Assembly: GCA_028139285.1 (NCBI GenBank)
Contig: JAOINI010000009.1
Span: 1-40,008, forward strand
DNA: 40,008 nt
Origin: Candidatus Pelagibacter sp.
GTDB taxonomy: Bacteria; Pseudomonadota; Alphaproteobacteria; Pelagibacterales; Pelagibacteraceae
Direction: 5' to 3'
Shown here: piece by piece, positions 9,409 to 14,043 of the stretch
How the letters are laid out: every line of letters begins with the position of its first letter
How positions within the stretch are numbered: position 1 is the stretch's first letter
Program-made: the position numbers and the translations under genes
The notes under the pieces: generated by a model
What the model saw: the letters and a program-made list of their open reading frames with translations, nothing else
What the model was told of the DNA's origin: nothing
Database searches by the model: none

Positions 9409-10890
9409 ATGAAGCTTTTTATTATTTTAGGAAATCAATTATTTAACCCAAAATATCTATCTGATTATAAAGATCACATTTTTTTTATGGCAGAGGACTA
9501 TGGTTTATGTACTTTTGAAAAGCATCATAAATTAAAAATTCTTCTTTTTTTGTCTTCGATGAGATCTTTCAAAGACGAACTTAAATCAAAAAATTTTAAT
9601 GTAATTTATAAAGATGTGAATAAAGATTTTAAATTATCCTACGAAAAAAAATTAGAAAAGACTATTAAAGAAAAAAAAATAAGAGAAATTACCTTTTTTG
9701 AAATTGAGGATAAATTTTTTGAAAAAAGAATATTGAATTTAGGAAAAAAAAATTCACTTAAGATCAACCAAGTTAGATCTCCAATGTTTTTAATGGAGAG
9801 ACAGGAGTTTAAAGATTACCTTTCTAAAAATAAACGGCCTTTCATGGCAAATTTTTATAAAATTGTAAGAACAAAAATGAATTTATTGATGAATAAGAAT
9901 GGAACTCCAAAAGGGAATAAATGGAGTTTCGATGAGGAAAATAGAAAAAAACTTCCAAATACTATTAAAGTTCCTACAATTTCTAAGGCAAAAGAGACAA
10001 AGGAAACTATTACTCTTAAAAAATTTGTAAATTCTAATTTTAAAGACCATCCAGGTAATACTGATAAATTTTGGTTTCCAACAACACGAAAAGACGCAAG
10101 TAAATGGCTTGATGAGTTTTTGAAAGAGAGAATAAAGCTTTTTGGGGATTATGAAGATGCAGTGACAGATAAATCAAATACTGTTTTTCATAGCGCGCTA
10201 AGCCCACTAATAAACTTAGGTTTAATAGCCCCTGAAGAAATAATAGAGAAATTAAGAAAGATTGAAAATAAAGTACCTATGAATTCCTTAGAAGGATATA
10301 TTAGACAGATTATAGGTTGGAGAGAATTTATGAGAGGAATTTACCAAAACTATGATCAAAGATTGGATAACACTAATTTTTTTAATCATAAAAGAAAAAT
10401 GAAAAAATCTTGGTATGACGGAAATACTGGTTTAGATCCGTTAGATCATGCAATCAATAATGCTAAAAACTATGGCTGGTCACATCATATTGAAAGGCTA
10501 ATGATATTGGCAAATATAATGAATCTTTGTGAGATAAATCCTAAACAAGTTTATAAATGGTTTATGGAAATGTTCGTAGACTCATCTGACTGGGTAATGG
10601 CGCCAAATGTTTATGGAATGGGATTATTTAGTGATGGTGGAATATTTGCAACAAAACCTTATATTTGTGGATCTAGTTATTTTCTTAAAATGATGCATTT
10701 TAAAAAAGGTCCTTGGTGTGATGTAATGGACGGATTATATTGGAAATTTATAGATAGACATAAGAAATTTTTCTTAAAAAATCCGCGCCTTGCAATGATG
10801 GTTAGGGTTTCTGAAAAAATGAATAAAGAGAGAAAAATACGAATTTTTAAAGCTGCCAATAATTTTATAAAAGAAAATACTAATGGTTAA
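9409..10890 (+). CDS. FeS-BCP-type photolyase/cryptochrome without the FeS cysteines
   Basis: Protein of 493 residues of the bacterial (6-4) photolyase/CryB branch. An alpha/beta antenna-like domain (about 1-135) precedes a helical FAD domain. Family landmarks are the paired histidines H359-H360 in GWSHHIERLM, the DSSDWVMAPNVYGMG segment, DGGIFATKPY and a C-terminal LYWKF. The branch is named for a [4Fe-4S] cluster held by four cysteines (C350, C438, C441, C454 in Agrobacterium PhrB). Here the C350 position is Pro344, the loop carrying C438/C441 is shortened, and only Cys437 remains at the last position. Other cysteines (34, 374, 420) do not align with ligands. It should still bind FAD and repair UV photoproducts using light, but substrate is inferred. 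It overlaps DUF393 by 8 nt. Confidence 0.9.
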   Translation: MKLFIILGNQLFNPKYLSDYKDHIFFMAEDYGLCTFEKHHKLKILLFLSSMRSFKDELKSKNFNVIYKDVNKDFKLSYEKKLEKTIKEKKIREITFFEIEDKFFEKRILNLGKKNSLKINQVRSPMFLMERQEFKDYLSKNKRPFMANFYKIVRTKMNLLMNKNGTPKGNKWSFDEENRKKLPNTIKVPTISKAKETKETITLKKFVNSNFKDHPGNTDKFWFPTTRKDASKWLDEFLKERIKLFGDYEDAVTDKSNTVFHSALSPLINLGLIAPEEIIEKLRKIENKVPMNSLEGYIRQIIGWREFMRGIYQNYDQRLDNTNFFNHKRKMKKSWYDGNTGLDPLDHAINNAKNYGWSHHIERLMILANIMNLCEINPKQVYKWFMEMFVDSSDWVMAPNVYGMGLFSDGGIFATKPYICGSSYFLKMMHFKKGPWCDVMDGLYWKFIDRHKKFFLKNPRLAMMVRVSEKMNKERKIRIFKAANNFIKENTNG

Positions 10891-11242
10891 AGTTTTTTTT
10901 AACAATTCATGTAATATTTGTAGAGCCGAAATCAATCATTACAAAAAACATAGTGATAACAGTGTAGAATGGATTGATGTAACTAATAATGAGGAAGCTC
11001 AGAAAGTTACCTCAAAATCATATAAAGAACTTTTAAGAAGAATGCATGTTGTACAAGATGGTAAAATAATTGATGGGGCAGAGTCTTTTTTAATAATTTG
11101 GAAAAATGTTCCTAAATATAATTTTTTATATAAAATATTTAAAATTAAACCTCTATTTTTTATATTAAATATTTTCTATGAGATTGCAGCTTATTTTCTA
11201 TTTATAAAAAATAAACACCTTCTGAAAAATGAAAAAAGCTAA
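10883..11242 (+). CDS. DUF393 (DCC family) thiol-disulfide protein
   Basis: Protein of 119 residues with the thioredoxin-like DCC family start: FFNNSCNICRAEINHY puts a CxxC pair at Cys10 and Cys13. DGAESFLIIW follows the usual mid-domain pattern. The C-terminal 40 residues are hydrophobic and may associate with the membrane. Members are predicted thiol-disulfide oxidoreductases, but their partners are rarely known. It overlaps the photolyase by 8 nt and DUF2256 by 14 nt, so the three genes form one operon. DCC proteins often accompany photolyase genes in marine bacteria; a role in redox maintenance of that system is inference. Confidence 0.9.
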   Translation: MVKVFFNNSCNICRAEINHYKKHSDNSVEWIDVTNNEEAQKVTSKSYKELLRRMHVVQDGKIIDGAESFLIIWKNVPKYNFLYKIFKIKPLFFILNIFYEIAAYFLFIKNKHLLKNEKS

Positions 11243-11354
11243 TTTTCCTAAAAAAACTTGCCCAGTTTGTAATAAACCTTTTGCATGGAGAAAAAAATGG
11301 AGACTTAATTGGGATAGAGTAAAATATTGTTCGAAAAAATGTTCTTCAAAATAG
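11229..11354 (+). CDS. DUF2256 zinc-ribbon microprotein
   Basis: A 41-residue protein read directly from the DNA: ATG at 11229, TAG at 11352-11354. It has two cysteine pairs (Cys11/Cys14 in CPVC, Cys34/Cys38 in CSKKC) around the motif FAWRKKWRLNW, which is the DUF2256 signature. Four cysteines with this spacing suggest one bound zinc. The gene overlaps the end of DUF393 by 14 nt and stops one base before the convergent photolyase-like gene. From memory, DUF2256 genes commonly sit next to cryptochrome/photolyase genes, which fits here. Function is unknown; a small partner or nucleic-acid-binding factor is possible. Its length puts it below usual gene-calling cutoffs. Confidence 0.9.
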   Translation: MKKANFPKKTCPVCNKPFAWRKKWRLNWDRVKYCSKKCSSK

Positions 11355-11355
11355 A

Positions 11356-12492
11356 TTATTGTAATTTAAAACTTGTCAAAATTTTAGGAATGTTATTTTT
11401 AAAATTAAAAAATCCTTTATTAGAAAATTGCCAAGAAAATTTGTCTTCCTCACTCAAAATAAAGTTTAATTTTAAACTTAGCTTTTTTCGAATAGTATTT
11501 AAAAAAGAAAAATTTTCTCCTATGCATGGGTGAACTACATCAAAAGAGTTAATTTCAGTTATAAGAGTTTGAAATTTTACTTCATCTATGATTTGTAATT
11601 CTTCAAATCTTTTTTTTTGATCATTAATTATTTCTGACTTATAGTCTAGGACCTTTTGTTCAAGCTTTAGCTTTCGAACATCATTACTAAGTAAAACTAA
11701 GTAAATATTTTTATATTTTTTTAAATTTTTATTTTCTAAATTTAATTCGTTTTCAAAAACTAGTAAATTTTCATTTGAATTATCTTCTGTAATAAAATCA
11801 AGTGAGTTTAATTTATATTCTCTTTTATCTGTTACAGGTAAAGCGTTCTCATTTAATTTAACATTCTTATATTTATTATTAGTAAACTTGCTTATATTCC
11901 ATGATTGAGCAACGTAGTGCTTTCCTTTAGTTTGAAGTCCAGCAACCCATCTCCAACTCAATGTGTTTGAAGCAGCATCACCATCGAATAAATGTTTCAT
12001 AAAGAATTCTGCTCCTTTTTGCCAGGGTAGATTTAAAGTAAATATCCAAATGCTAGCAAACCACATTCTTGTATGATTATGTAAATAATTATTTTCTTTC
12101 AGCTCTTTTACCCAATCATTAAAACATTCAATTTGAGTTTCACCATTGATTGCTTTTTTATAATTGTCATCTTCCTTAAATCCTTTTAAATCCTCTATAA
12201 AGTCAGTCCAAACTTTAGGTCTTAGCTCCAGCCAACCTTTCCAATAAACTCTCCAAAATATTTCTTGGATATATTTTTCAACTTTTTGATATGGAAACTT
12301 TGATAAAACAGTTTTGGCTACCTCATACTCAGTAATTAATCTATGGGAGATATAAGGTGATAAGCAAGATACATTTGATTTGTCTTTTGGCCCTAAATCA
12401 AAATTTCTTTTGAAACTATAATTTGCTAATTCACTGTTTATAAAAGTATCGAGCTGTTTTAAAGCTCCATCCCTTGAAATTTCGAATTTCAT
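11356..12492 (-). CDS. Photolyase-related flavoprotein with domains in reversed order
   Basis: Protein of 378 residues. Residues about 20-205 match the class I photolyase/cryptochrome FAD-binding domain: VSCLSPYISHR (41-51), EIFWRVYWKGW (77-87), YLHNHTRMWFAS (136-147), DGDAASNTLSWRWVAG (170-185). Unlike normal photolyases, no antenna domain precedes this; it begins almost at residue 1. Instead, residues about 240-378 form an alpha/beta-looking region starting LLVFENELNLEN, which resembles the first strand of a photolyase antenna domain, and ending KGFFNFKNNIPKIL, reminiscent of the antenna-to-FAD linker. This suggests a circular permutation. It ends an msrA operon and starts on the stop codon of the preceding gene (ATGA). 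DNA repair or blue-light sensing are both possible. Confidence 0.88.
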   Translation of the reverse strand: MKFEISRDGALKQLDTFINSELANYSFKRNFDLGPKDKSNVSCLSPYISHRLITEYEVAKTVLSKFPYQKVEKYIQEIFWRVYWKGWLELRPKVWTDFIEDLKGFKEDDNYKKAINGETQIECFNDWVKELKENNYLHNHTRMWFASIWIFTLNLPWQKGAEFFMKHLFDGDAASNTLSWRWVAGLQTKGKHYVAQSWNISKFTNNKYKNVKLNENALPVTDKREYKLNSLDFITEDNSNENLLVFENELNLENKNLKKYKNIYLVLLSNDVRKLKLEQKVLDYKSEIINDQKKRFEELQIIDEVKFQTLITEINSFDVVHPCIGENFSFLNTIRKKLSLKLNFILSEEDKFSWQFSNKGFFNFKNNIPKILTSFKLQ

Positions 12493-12692
12493 CAGTCTTC
12501 GTCATCCCTCCACCCATCGATAAAAAGTTTCCAGCATGCAAAAGAAACGCAAACAATTCCGACGCAAAAACCTAAAAGTACTCCATTATGCTTGCCTAAA
12601 TATATTGATCCATAATGAGTGCTTAGTATTGGCGGCACAACTAATATTGCACCAATAATTAAGTATCGAACTGCGAAGGGTGGTCTTTTCAA
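12492..12692 (-). CDS. Small two-helix membrane protein
   Basis: Protein of 66 residues with two predicted membrane segments, YLIIGAILVVPPIL (10-23) and LLGFCVGIVCVSFACWKLFI (39-58), and an acidic tail WRDDED. I do not recognise a family. It overlaps DUF4864-like by 4 nt at its start and the photolyase-like gene by its stop codon, so it is firmly within the msrA operon. A role in anchoring or supporting one of the neighbouring proteins is conceivable but unproven. Confidence 0.75.
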   Translation of the reverse strand: MKRPPFAVRYLIIGAILVVPPILSTHYGSIYLGKHNGVLLGFCVGIVCVSFACWKLFIDGWRDDED

Positions 12693-13144
12693 ATTGAATT
12701 TCCTTGATCAAGTGGCATTGAAACTGCAGTTGTGAACCAGCAATTAAAACAATTTTCCTCATTACCTTTACTTACGTGCCATTCATAAAAAAATTGTTGC
12801 TTCTCATCGCTTAATACTTTTACTCCGTAAATAAATTTATTTTCGGTATTAGTAATTAAATCTATCTTATGTGAAAAATGGTTTAAAAGTATTCTATAAT
12901 GAACATCATAAAGCATAATTCTAAATCTAGGGTATGGCCCAGTCATTTTTTTATTATCGGGATGAGCAAATATCCATGTTTGTTTAATGCCGTTATCTTT
13001 GTCATCATTATTTTTAAGAGCATCTAATTGTATTTTAATAACATCATAAGCAGATAAATTTTCTGCTGGTTTTATCATTTCTGCATTTACTGAATTAACA
13101 AAACCTAGAAAAAAAATTGCTAAAATTATTTTTTTCAATTCCAT
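12689..13144 (-). CDS. Exported protein, probably DUF4864
   Basis: Protein of 151 residues with a signal peptide (residues 1-21, ending VNA). The mature part is a small globular domain: VIKIQLDALKNND, then IKQTWIFAHPDNKK, then GPYPRFRIML, and ending with NCFNCWFTTAVSMPL. The pattern of a helix with QLDAL followed by WxFAHP resembles DUF4864, but I am only fairly sure. The CFNC pair may form a disulfide. It overlaps msrA by 10 nt and the small membrane protein by 4 nt, in an operon that ends with the photolyase-like gene. Location should be periplasmic, as for MsrA. Confidence 0.7.
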   Translation of the reverse strand: MELKKIILAIFFLGFVNSVNAEMIKPAENLSAYDVIKIQLDALKNNDDKDNGIKQTWIFAHPDNKKMTGPYPRFRIMLYDVHYRILLNHFSHKIDLITNTENKFIYGVKVLSDEKQQFFYEWHVSKGNEENCFNCWFTTAVSMPLDQGNSI

Positions 13145-13704
13145 ATTCTTCTCAAGGTATCTTCTCTTTTACACCCATTTTTATACATCAGATAACGAAT
13201 AAAATTTTTTTCATAATAATCTTGGTGATAATCTTCTGCTGGATAAAATTTCTTAAATTTCCAAACTAAAGTGACTATTTCTCTATTAAATTTACTTTCT
13301 AAATTTTTAAAAGATTTATCAATAAATTCTTTCTCAAGTTGATTCTGAAAAAAAATTACTGATCTATAGCTTTTACCTTTATCACAAAACTGACCCTCCG
13401 AATCAAAAGGATCTATATTTCTCCAATAAATATTTAAAAGTTGTTCATAACTTACAACTTTGGAGTCATATGTTATTTCTATAGCCTCCACGTGGCCAGT
13501 GTCTTTATATATTACATCTTGATAAGTAGGATTTTTTAAGTGACCTCCTGAATATCCTGAAATTGACGATAACACTCCTTCTATTTGATCAAATGACTCT
13601 TCCATACACCAAAAACAACCGCCAGCAAAATAAGCCTTTTTTTCCTCCGCATGCAAATTTAAACTTAAGGAAAGTATAGTGACAAAAAGTAAAATTTTTT
13701 TCAT
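13135..13704 (-). CDS. msrA: Exported peptide methionine-S-sulfoxide reductase MsrA
   Basis: Repairs oxidised methionine, S epimer. The catalytic motif GCFWC is at 29-33 with nucleophile Cys30. GYSGG, the YKDTGHVEAIEITYD segment and the YPAEDYHQDYY motif are all present. Residues 1-19 form a signal peptide (ending LHA), so the enzyme acts in the periplasm, which is less common than cytosolic MsrA. Resolving cysteines could be Cys104 (in GQFCDKG) and Cys178 near the C-terminus. It leads a minus-strand operon of four overlapping genes that ends in a photolyase-like flavoprotein, which links protein and DNA photodamage repair in one transcript. No msrB is present. Confidence 0.95.
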   Translation of the reverse strand: MKKILLFVTILSLSLNLHAEEKKAYFAGGCFWCMEESFDQIEGVLSSISGYSGGHLKNPTYQDVIYKDTGHVEAIEITYDSKVVSYEQLLNIYWRNIDPFDSEGQFCDKGKSYRSVIFFQNQLEKEFIDKSFKNLESKFNREIVTLVWKFKKFYPAEDYHQDYYEKNFIRYLMYKNGCKREDTLRRIWN

Positions 13705-13728: not shown

Positions 13729-14043
13729 ATGGAAAACGATGGATTTATTGTCATAGAAGGAATTCATGAAAATCCTAACAATATAAATACTTTAGACGAA
13801 CAAACAAAAGTTGTTCATGGTCCTTATAATAAAATCGAAGCTGAGAAAGTGGCTAAAGGCTTAATCCAAAAAAATATTGACAATTTTTATCATAGAGCTT
13901 GGGTAATAAATAAAAATGTTGAACTCAACAATGTTTGTGAAGAATGTAAAAAAGAGGATGACAGCGTAAAACAAAATTTTATCATGTATAGTTTCAAAAT
14001 TTGTAACAGCTGTAATTTAGCTAAAACTATTTTTCCCCTTTAG
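13729..14043 (+). CDS. Hypothetical protein with C-terminal CxxC pairs
   Basis: Protein of 104 residues that I do not recognise. The N-terminal part looks globular (FIVIEGI near 6-12, then a basic amphipathic helix KIEAEKVAKGLIQKN at 35-49). The C-terminal part holds two cysteine pairs, Cys70/Cys73 and Cys92/Cys95, spaced like a zinc ribbon. It is divergent from msrA with only 24 nt between the start codons, so they probably share a regulatory region. Its end overlaps the convergent Yip1-like gene by 4 nt. The open frame is consistent with a real gene, but support is limited to position and the cysteine pattern. Confidence 0.6.
   Translation: MENDGFIVIEGIHENPNNINTLDEQTKVVHGPYNKIEAEKVAKGLIQKNIDNFYHRAWVINKNVELNNVCEECKKEDDSVKQNFIMYSFKICNSCNLAKTIFPL

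Follow-up and report, generated by a model that had tools for sequence, protein, structure and literature searches.

The window analysed here, the whole 40,008-nucleotide stretch at positions 1 to 40,008 of contig JAOINI010000009.1 from Candidatus Pelagibacter sp. (assembly GCA_028139285.1), encodes a protein that is probably a photolyase of the NewPHL type, which would repair cyclobutane pyrimidine dimers (CPDs) in single-stranded DNA and would bear a degenerate antenna domain, the Z-domain, behind its flavin adenine dinucleotide (FAD)-binding catalytic domain. The initial annotation had predicted this gene and placed its FAD domain ahead of an antenna-like alpha/beta domain; the open reading frame proved to be real (Table 1), and the domain order was borne out by Pfam, by fold comparison and by a model of the full protein. 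Because full-length relatives are numerous, sequence comparison indicates that the frame is not a chance one.

Pfam recognised FAD_binding_7 over residues 75-199 (E 2.4e-16, 60.2 bits vs a cut-off of 27) with no match N-terminal to it, so that the FAD-binding photolyase domain forms the N-terminus without an antenna before it. No second family was found at E 1, and no antenna family (PF00875) was recognised, because FAD_binding_7 alone reached that level. Fold comparison delimited the catalytic domain to residue 1 to about 219-225, and the alignments with Protein Data Bank (PDB) chains began at query residue ~6-8, corresponding to photolyase residue ~179-227. Since the catalytic domain is intact from its start and is followed by about 150 residues, simple truncation was rejected, and the FAD-first order read by the initial annotation was upheld. 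In the catalytic part (residues 1-205), 86 of 205 positions were conserved in at least 90% of 163 rows of relatives. These included E77, W80, N139, M143 and W182, which we take to be the equivalents of the CPD-binding residues of class I photolyases and which were kept in all 163 relatives. In addition, W180 and W157 of the classical photoreduction chain were retained; the distal tryptophan and the canonical C-terminal tail were absent. The only three cysteines (43, 123 and 323) were conserved in fractions of 0.15, 0.68 and 0.04 of the 163 rows, and the cysteine set of an iron-sulfur (Fe-S) cluster was not present by this analysis. The protein scored below the cut-offs of the photolyase equivalog NF007955 (64.1 of 506 bits) and of the CRY-DASH model TIGR02765 (48.8 of 317.05 bits).

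We infer that the N-terminal domain would hold FAD, which in its reduced form would take up blue or near-ultraviolet light and, once excited, donate an electron to a CPD in the active site, the electron transfer splitting the dimer; by analogy with published relatives, the substrate would be a CPD in single-stranded DNA. Cryptochromes have the same fold, and on its own strand the gene follows msrA, a gene of oxidative stress, and no repair gene, so the catalytic domain might instead have lost repair and act as a cryptochrome-like light sensor, perhaps linked to msrA. We consider such a sensor very improbable, as the positions presumed to contact the dimer are intact in every relative aligned. 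Moreover, repair of CPDs in single-stranded DNA has been reported for relatives (PMC9426592).

Among 598 matched stretches, 582 were relatives, and the best 80 of the 582 loci were retained; the top ones came from Pelagibacteraceae single-cell genomes, with identity reaching 97% along the entire protein. The protein search scored 7999 proteins, and the best 120 listed, mostly of 385-446 residues, contained the longer relatives in other Alphaproteobacteria that the initial annotation had mentioned. Alignment A1 drew 15 rows from the 80 SAR11 loci and 84 from the 120 listed proteins, and the window protein was 35-40% identical to most of its non-SAR11 rows. It was also noticed that the frame of one SAR11 relative (L038) ended at 334 residues with the match continuing beyond the stop, and that another relative (L143) had an in-frame stop inside the match. 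SAR11 bacteria are among the most abundant of the sunlit ocean, and the presence of the protein in 74 of 118 genomes searched from the family of a SAR11 relative (E <= 1e-40) would place the single-stranded-DNA class of photolyases within this group; near full-length proteins with both domains occurred in 23 of 398 genomes sampled from the phylum (E < 1e-110). A PF03441 search of four SAR11 genomes gave three matches in three of them (a class I-like photolyase, the NewPHL-type gene and a DPRP-type gene) and only the latter two genes in the fourth; one class I-like SAR11 protein matched the photolyase equivalog best (353 of 506 bits, as against 176 of 317 for DASH). A defence gene was rejected as a candidate, there being no PADLOC match, and so was a phage origin: 10 records of the phage collection matched, none over 80% of the query and all at less than 60% identity, and the matches listed stopped at query residue 193. 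Records without annotation that bear the names of Listeria, Enterococcus and Staphylococcus phages contained photolyase FAD domains, some of which may, as a guess, be host DNA, and phrB was annotated in two Acinetobacter phage records.

The Z-domain formed an alpha/beta unit (residues 241-374) in the full model, its first strand (242-246) being the LLVFE stretch and its last helix (368-374) lying within the IPKIL stretch, and the linker region before it had a block mean predicted local distance difference test score of 71 at residues 231-240. It was alignable in full with the 99 relatives of A1. No solved NewPHL structure was found by sequence, the A1 profile matching 19 PDB sequences (E 1e-5) in the catalytic part, the best with 84.8 bits, and a profile of the SAR11 Z-domains gave no match to PDB sequences up to E 10. 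Fold comparison with photolyase antenna domains, the check set in advance and carried out on residues 235-378, came out modestly in favour of the antenna reading: the top rows in VIA-align were photolyase antenna domains, with photolyases or cryptochromes throughout ranks 1-9, whereas Foldseek placed PPAT chains above PhrB (E 2.8e-3 vs 0.016) and returned nothing at E 0.001 or better. Several VIA-align rows paired the last Z helices with catalytic-domain residues ~402-446 at a root mean square deviation of 5-8 A, which permits no firm inference.

From the model and the profiles together, we hold a degenerate photolyase antenna domain, placed after the catalytic domain, to be the most likely identity of the Z-domain, a link that may be new within the literature searched. 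Alternatively, the Z-domain might be a Rossmann- or HUP-like domain of unrelated origin that was recruited once the antenna had been lost; NewPHL would then be a photolyase whose domain order was never inverted. Several results weigh on that side and against an antenna origin, namely the Foldseek ranking and its lack of significant matches, USP and Can2 lying no more than 2 Z units below the best photolyase row in VIA-align, and the failure of the Z-domain to match directly a canonical antenna profile (built from 11 of 18 canonical rows, with the 77-residue P0249 excluded) or, for the SAR11 rows alone, any of the antenna-type profiles. We nevertheless regard such recruitment as unlikely, since the profile of the Z-domain matched stand-alone antenna-like proteins encoded beside FAD-only genes, with P values of 5.5e-6 and 1.1e-7 for Phr5/6-like proteins (the NewPHL set consisting of rows longer than 360 residues), FAD-first fusions carrying an antenna-like domain exist, and the leading VIA-align ranks were occupied as described above. 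As for function, only 3 of 105 positions of the alpha/beta core were conserved in at least 90% of the 163 rows, whereas the C-terminal motif (residues 346-370) had 7 of its 25 positions so conserved; therefore, sequence conservation favours the Z-domain as a structural partner of the catalytic domain over a pigment binder, and the weak conservation of the core speaks against a retained antenna-pigment pocket. The motif would probably pack against the catalytic domain, which itself has no canonical C-terminal tail.

Arrangements with the FAD part first were also found in other lineages. In four alphaproteobacterial genomes (L098, L099, L100 and L101), an FAD-only frame was followed by an overlapping or adjoining frame of ~130-145 residues with an antenna-like product. 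In Deinococcus sp. QL22 the FAD and antenna-like genes were separate with a four-base overlap, and in three other Deinococcus plasmids both parts were fused, FAD first. Two Persicobacter plasmids of the Bacteroidota (L150 and L160), the records of which were nearly without annotation, had a shorter FAD-first fusion with a short C-terminal domain. Antenna-like domains beside or fused to FAD-only genes were those of L098-L101 and of Deinococcus L149 and L157-L159; when Pfam was run on two such domains, PF00875 appeared below threshold (E 0.1) in one and nothing in the other. A profile made from 16 stand-alone domains had matches in 5 of the 398 genomes. One (G032) was the split pair of L101, and the other four (E 2.8e-5 to 8.7e-4) sat in open frames of 465-786 residues; in one of these (G433) the match lay just upstream of the FAD match of the frame, i.e., in the canonical photolyase order, and the canonical layout of the remaining three was judged by frame length.

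A tree of FAD domains was built from 51 rows (25 FAD-first, 22 class I-like and 4 DPRP), without class II, class III, DASH or animal rows. On one side of a branch with support of 98/94 stood the FAD-first rows, and on the other all remaining ones. The 15 NewPHL rows, with alphaproteobacterial kin such as Tateyamaria P0154 and Niveispirillum L163 inside, formed a single group (100/100). On this tree the fused rows need two changes and the split rows likewise two. Where the Persicobacter rows join NewPHL, the tree program warned of the meeting of long branches.

These arrangements lend themselves to a testable account of the nature of the Z-domain and of how an inverted photolyase could arise, which we regard as evenly poised between right and wrong. 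We infer that an overlapping gene pair of the phr4/phr5 type may have fused, moving the antenna to the C-terminus; a single series would then include as its stages split pairs, FAD-first fusions and NewPHL, the antenna would have lost pigment binding and become a lid of the FAD domain, and the single-stranded-DNA class would stem from inversion of domain order, not from a primordial short ancestor. An opposite view, published for SPL as the ancestor (PMC9649867, PMC9498864), would make the short FAD-first form ancestral, so that NewPHL, the fusions and the split pairs would each have gained their C-terminal domains separately and later. The root of our tree is not settled and internal branches of the FAD-first group are weak (91/42 and 89/32), both of which tell in favour of this view; the C-terminal domains nonetheless share a common profile signal and all FAD-first rows fall on one side of a branch, and we hold separate gains to be quite unlikely.

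Table 1. Features of the photolyase gene and of the minus-strand run to which it belongs
Feature	Position	Strand	Remarks
NewPHL-type photolyase gene (probable)	11356..12492	-	378 residues plus stop, ATG start
N-terminal catalytic (FAD) domain	11818..12492	-	residues 1-225
Pfam FAD_binding_7 match	11896-12270	-	residues 75-199
Linker	11773..11817	-	residues 226-240; least confident stretch of the model
Z-domain alpha/beta core, antenna-like fold	11458..11772	-	residues 241-345
Z-domain conserved C-terminal motif (includes KGFFNFKNNIP)	11383..11457	-	residues 346-370
66-residue frame directly upstream of the photolyase gene	12492..12692	-	TTG start; sub-threshold Pfam DUF6460 match only
DUF4864-like frame	12689..13144	-	Pfam sub-threshold, 16.3 of 27.1 bits
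msrA (peptide methionine sulfoxide reductase)	13135..13704	-	open reading frame and Pfam

The photolyase gene is the last of a minus-strand run in which msrA and the DUF4864-like frame overlap and are followed by the 66-residue frame, the stop of which shares one base with the photolyase ATG. The suggestion of the initial annotation that the gene ends an msrA operon agrees with this order and these overlaps, as read from the sequence. At the 80 SAR11 loci, the neighbours were a DPRP gene (72), a DUF4864-like gene (61), a DCC1-like gene (60) and msrA (59), loci cut by a contig end being scored as misses. A converging run on the plus strand (9409-11354) consisted of mutually overlapping genes for a DPRP-type photolyase relative (PF04244 and a weak FAD_binding_7), a DCC1-like thiol-disulfide oxidoreductase and a 41-residue DUF2256 protein (11229-11354). 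In addition, a 104-residue frame (13729-14043, plus strand; DUF4170 below threshold, 16.6 of 25 bits) diverged from msrA, and it was near the photolyase gene at 59 of the 80 SAR11 loci.

The initial annotation had suggested that the architecture may be conserved but little studied; in fact, the inverted order has been published both for NewPHL/Phr7 and for Phr4-5/Phr6 (PMC9426592, PMC13274461). Phr7 was described as an N-terminal FAD domain with a C-terminal Z-domain, already termed an atypical, short photolyase domain; the proteins of D. shibae and M. mesophilicum were shown to be CPD photolyases with single-stranded DNA as their substrate, and Phr4 and Phr6, of reversed domain order, were placed nearest to Phr7 (PMC9426592). 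NewPHLs or SPLs were likewise described as repairing CPDs in single-stranded DNA and as having an inverted domain topology (PMC13274461). NewPHL/Phr7 has been reported from Dinoroseobacter shibae, Methylobacterium mesophilicum and Prochlorococcus HL and LLI. The window protein shares with this class the N-terminal FAD domain, the C-terminal Z-domain and the lack of an N-terminal antenna and of the four-cysteine set (PMC9426592, PMC13274461), a likeness judged against the published descriptions of the class; at 378 residues it is shorter than most of the relatives listed. The gene would thus be an added member of the NewPHL/Phr7 class, its substrate and activity being carried over from these relatives. 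SPL was grouped with NewPHL (PMC13274461); the window protein bears a second, C-terminal domain. The picocyanobacterial Phr4/Phr5 and Phr6, like the split and fused relatives described above, resemble the window protein in that the FAD part comes first and an antenna-like part follows, either within the same protein or encoded by the adjacent gene; the split and fused relatives also fall on its side of the FAD-domain branch. However, the Z-domain of the window protein has diverged far from the antenna part of these proteins, and the window protein lacks the Fe-S cysteines borne by Phr4 and Phr6 (PMC9426592). In class I CPD photolyases the antenna (PF00875) precedes the FAD domain, and a distal tryptophan and a C-terminal tail are present, all of which set them apart from the window protein, whereas the fold of the catalytic domain and the retained active-site positions are shared by both.
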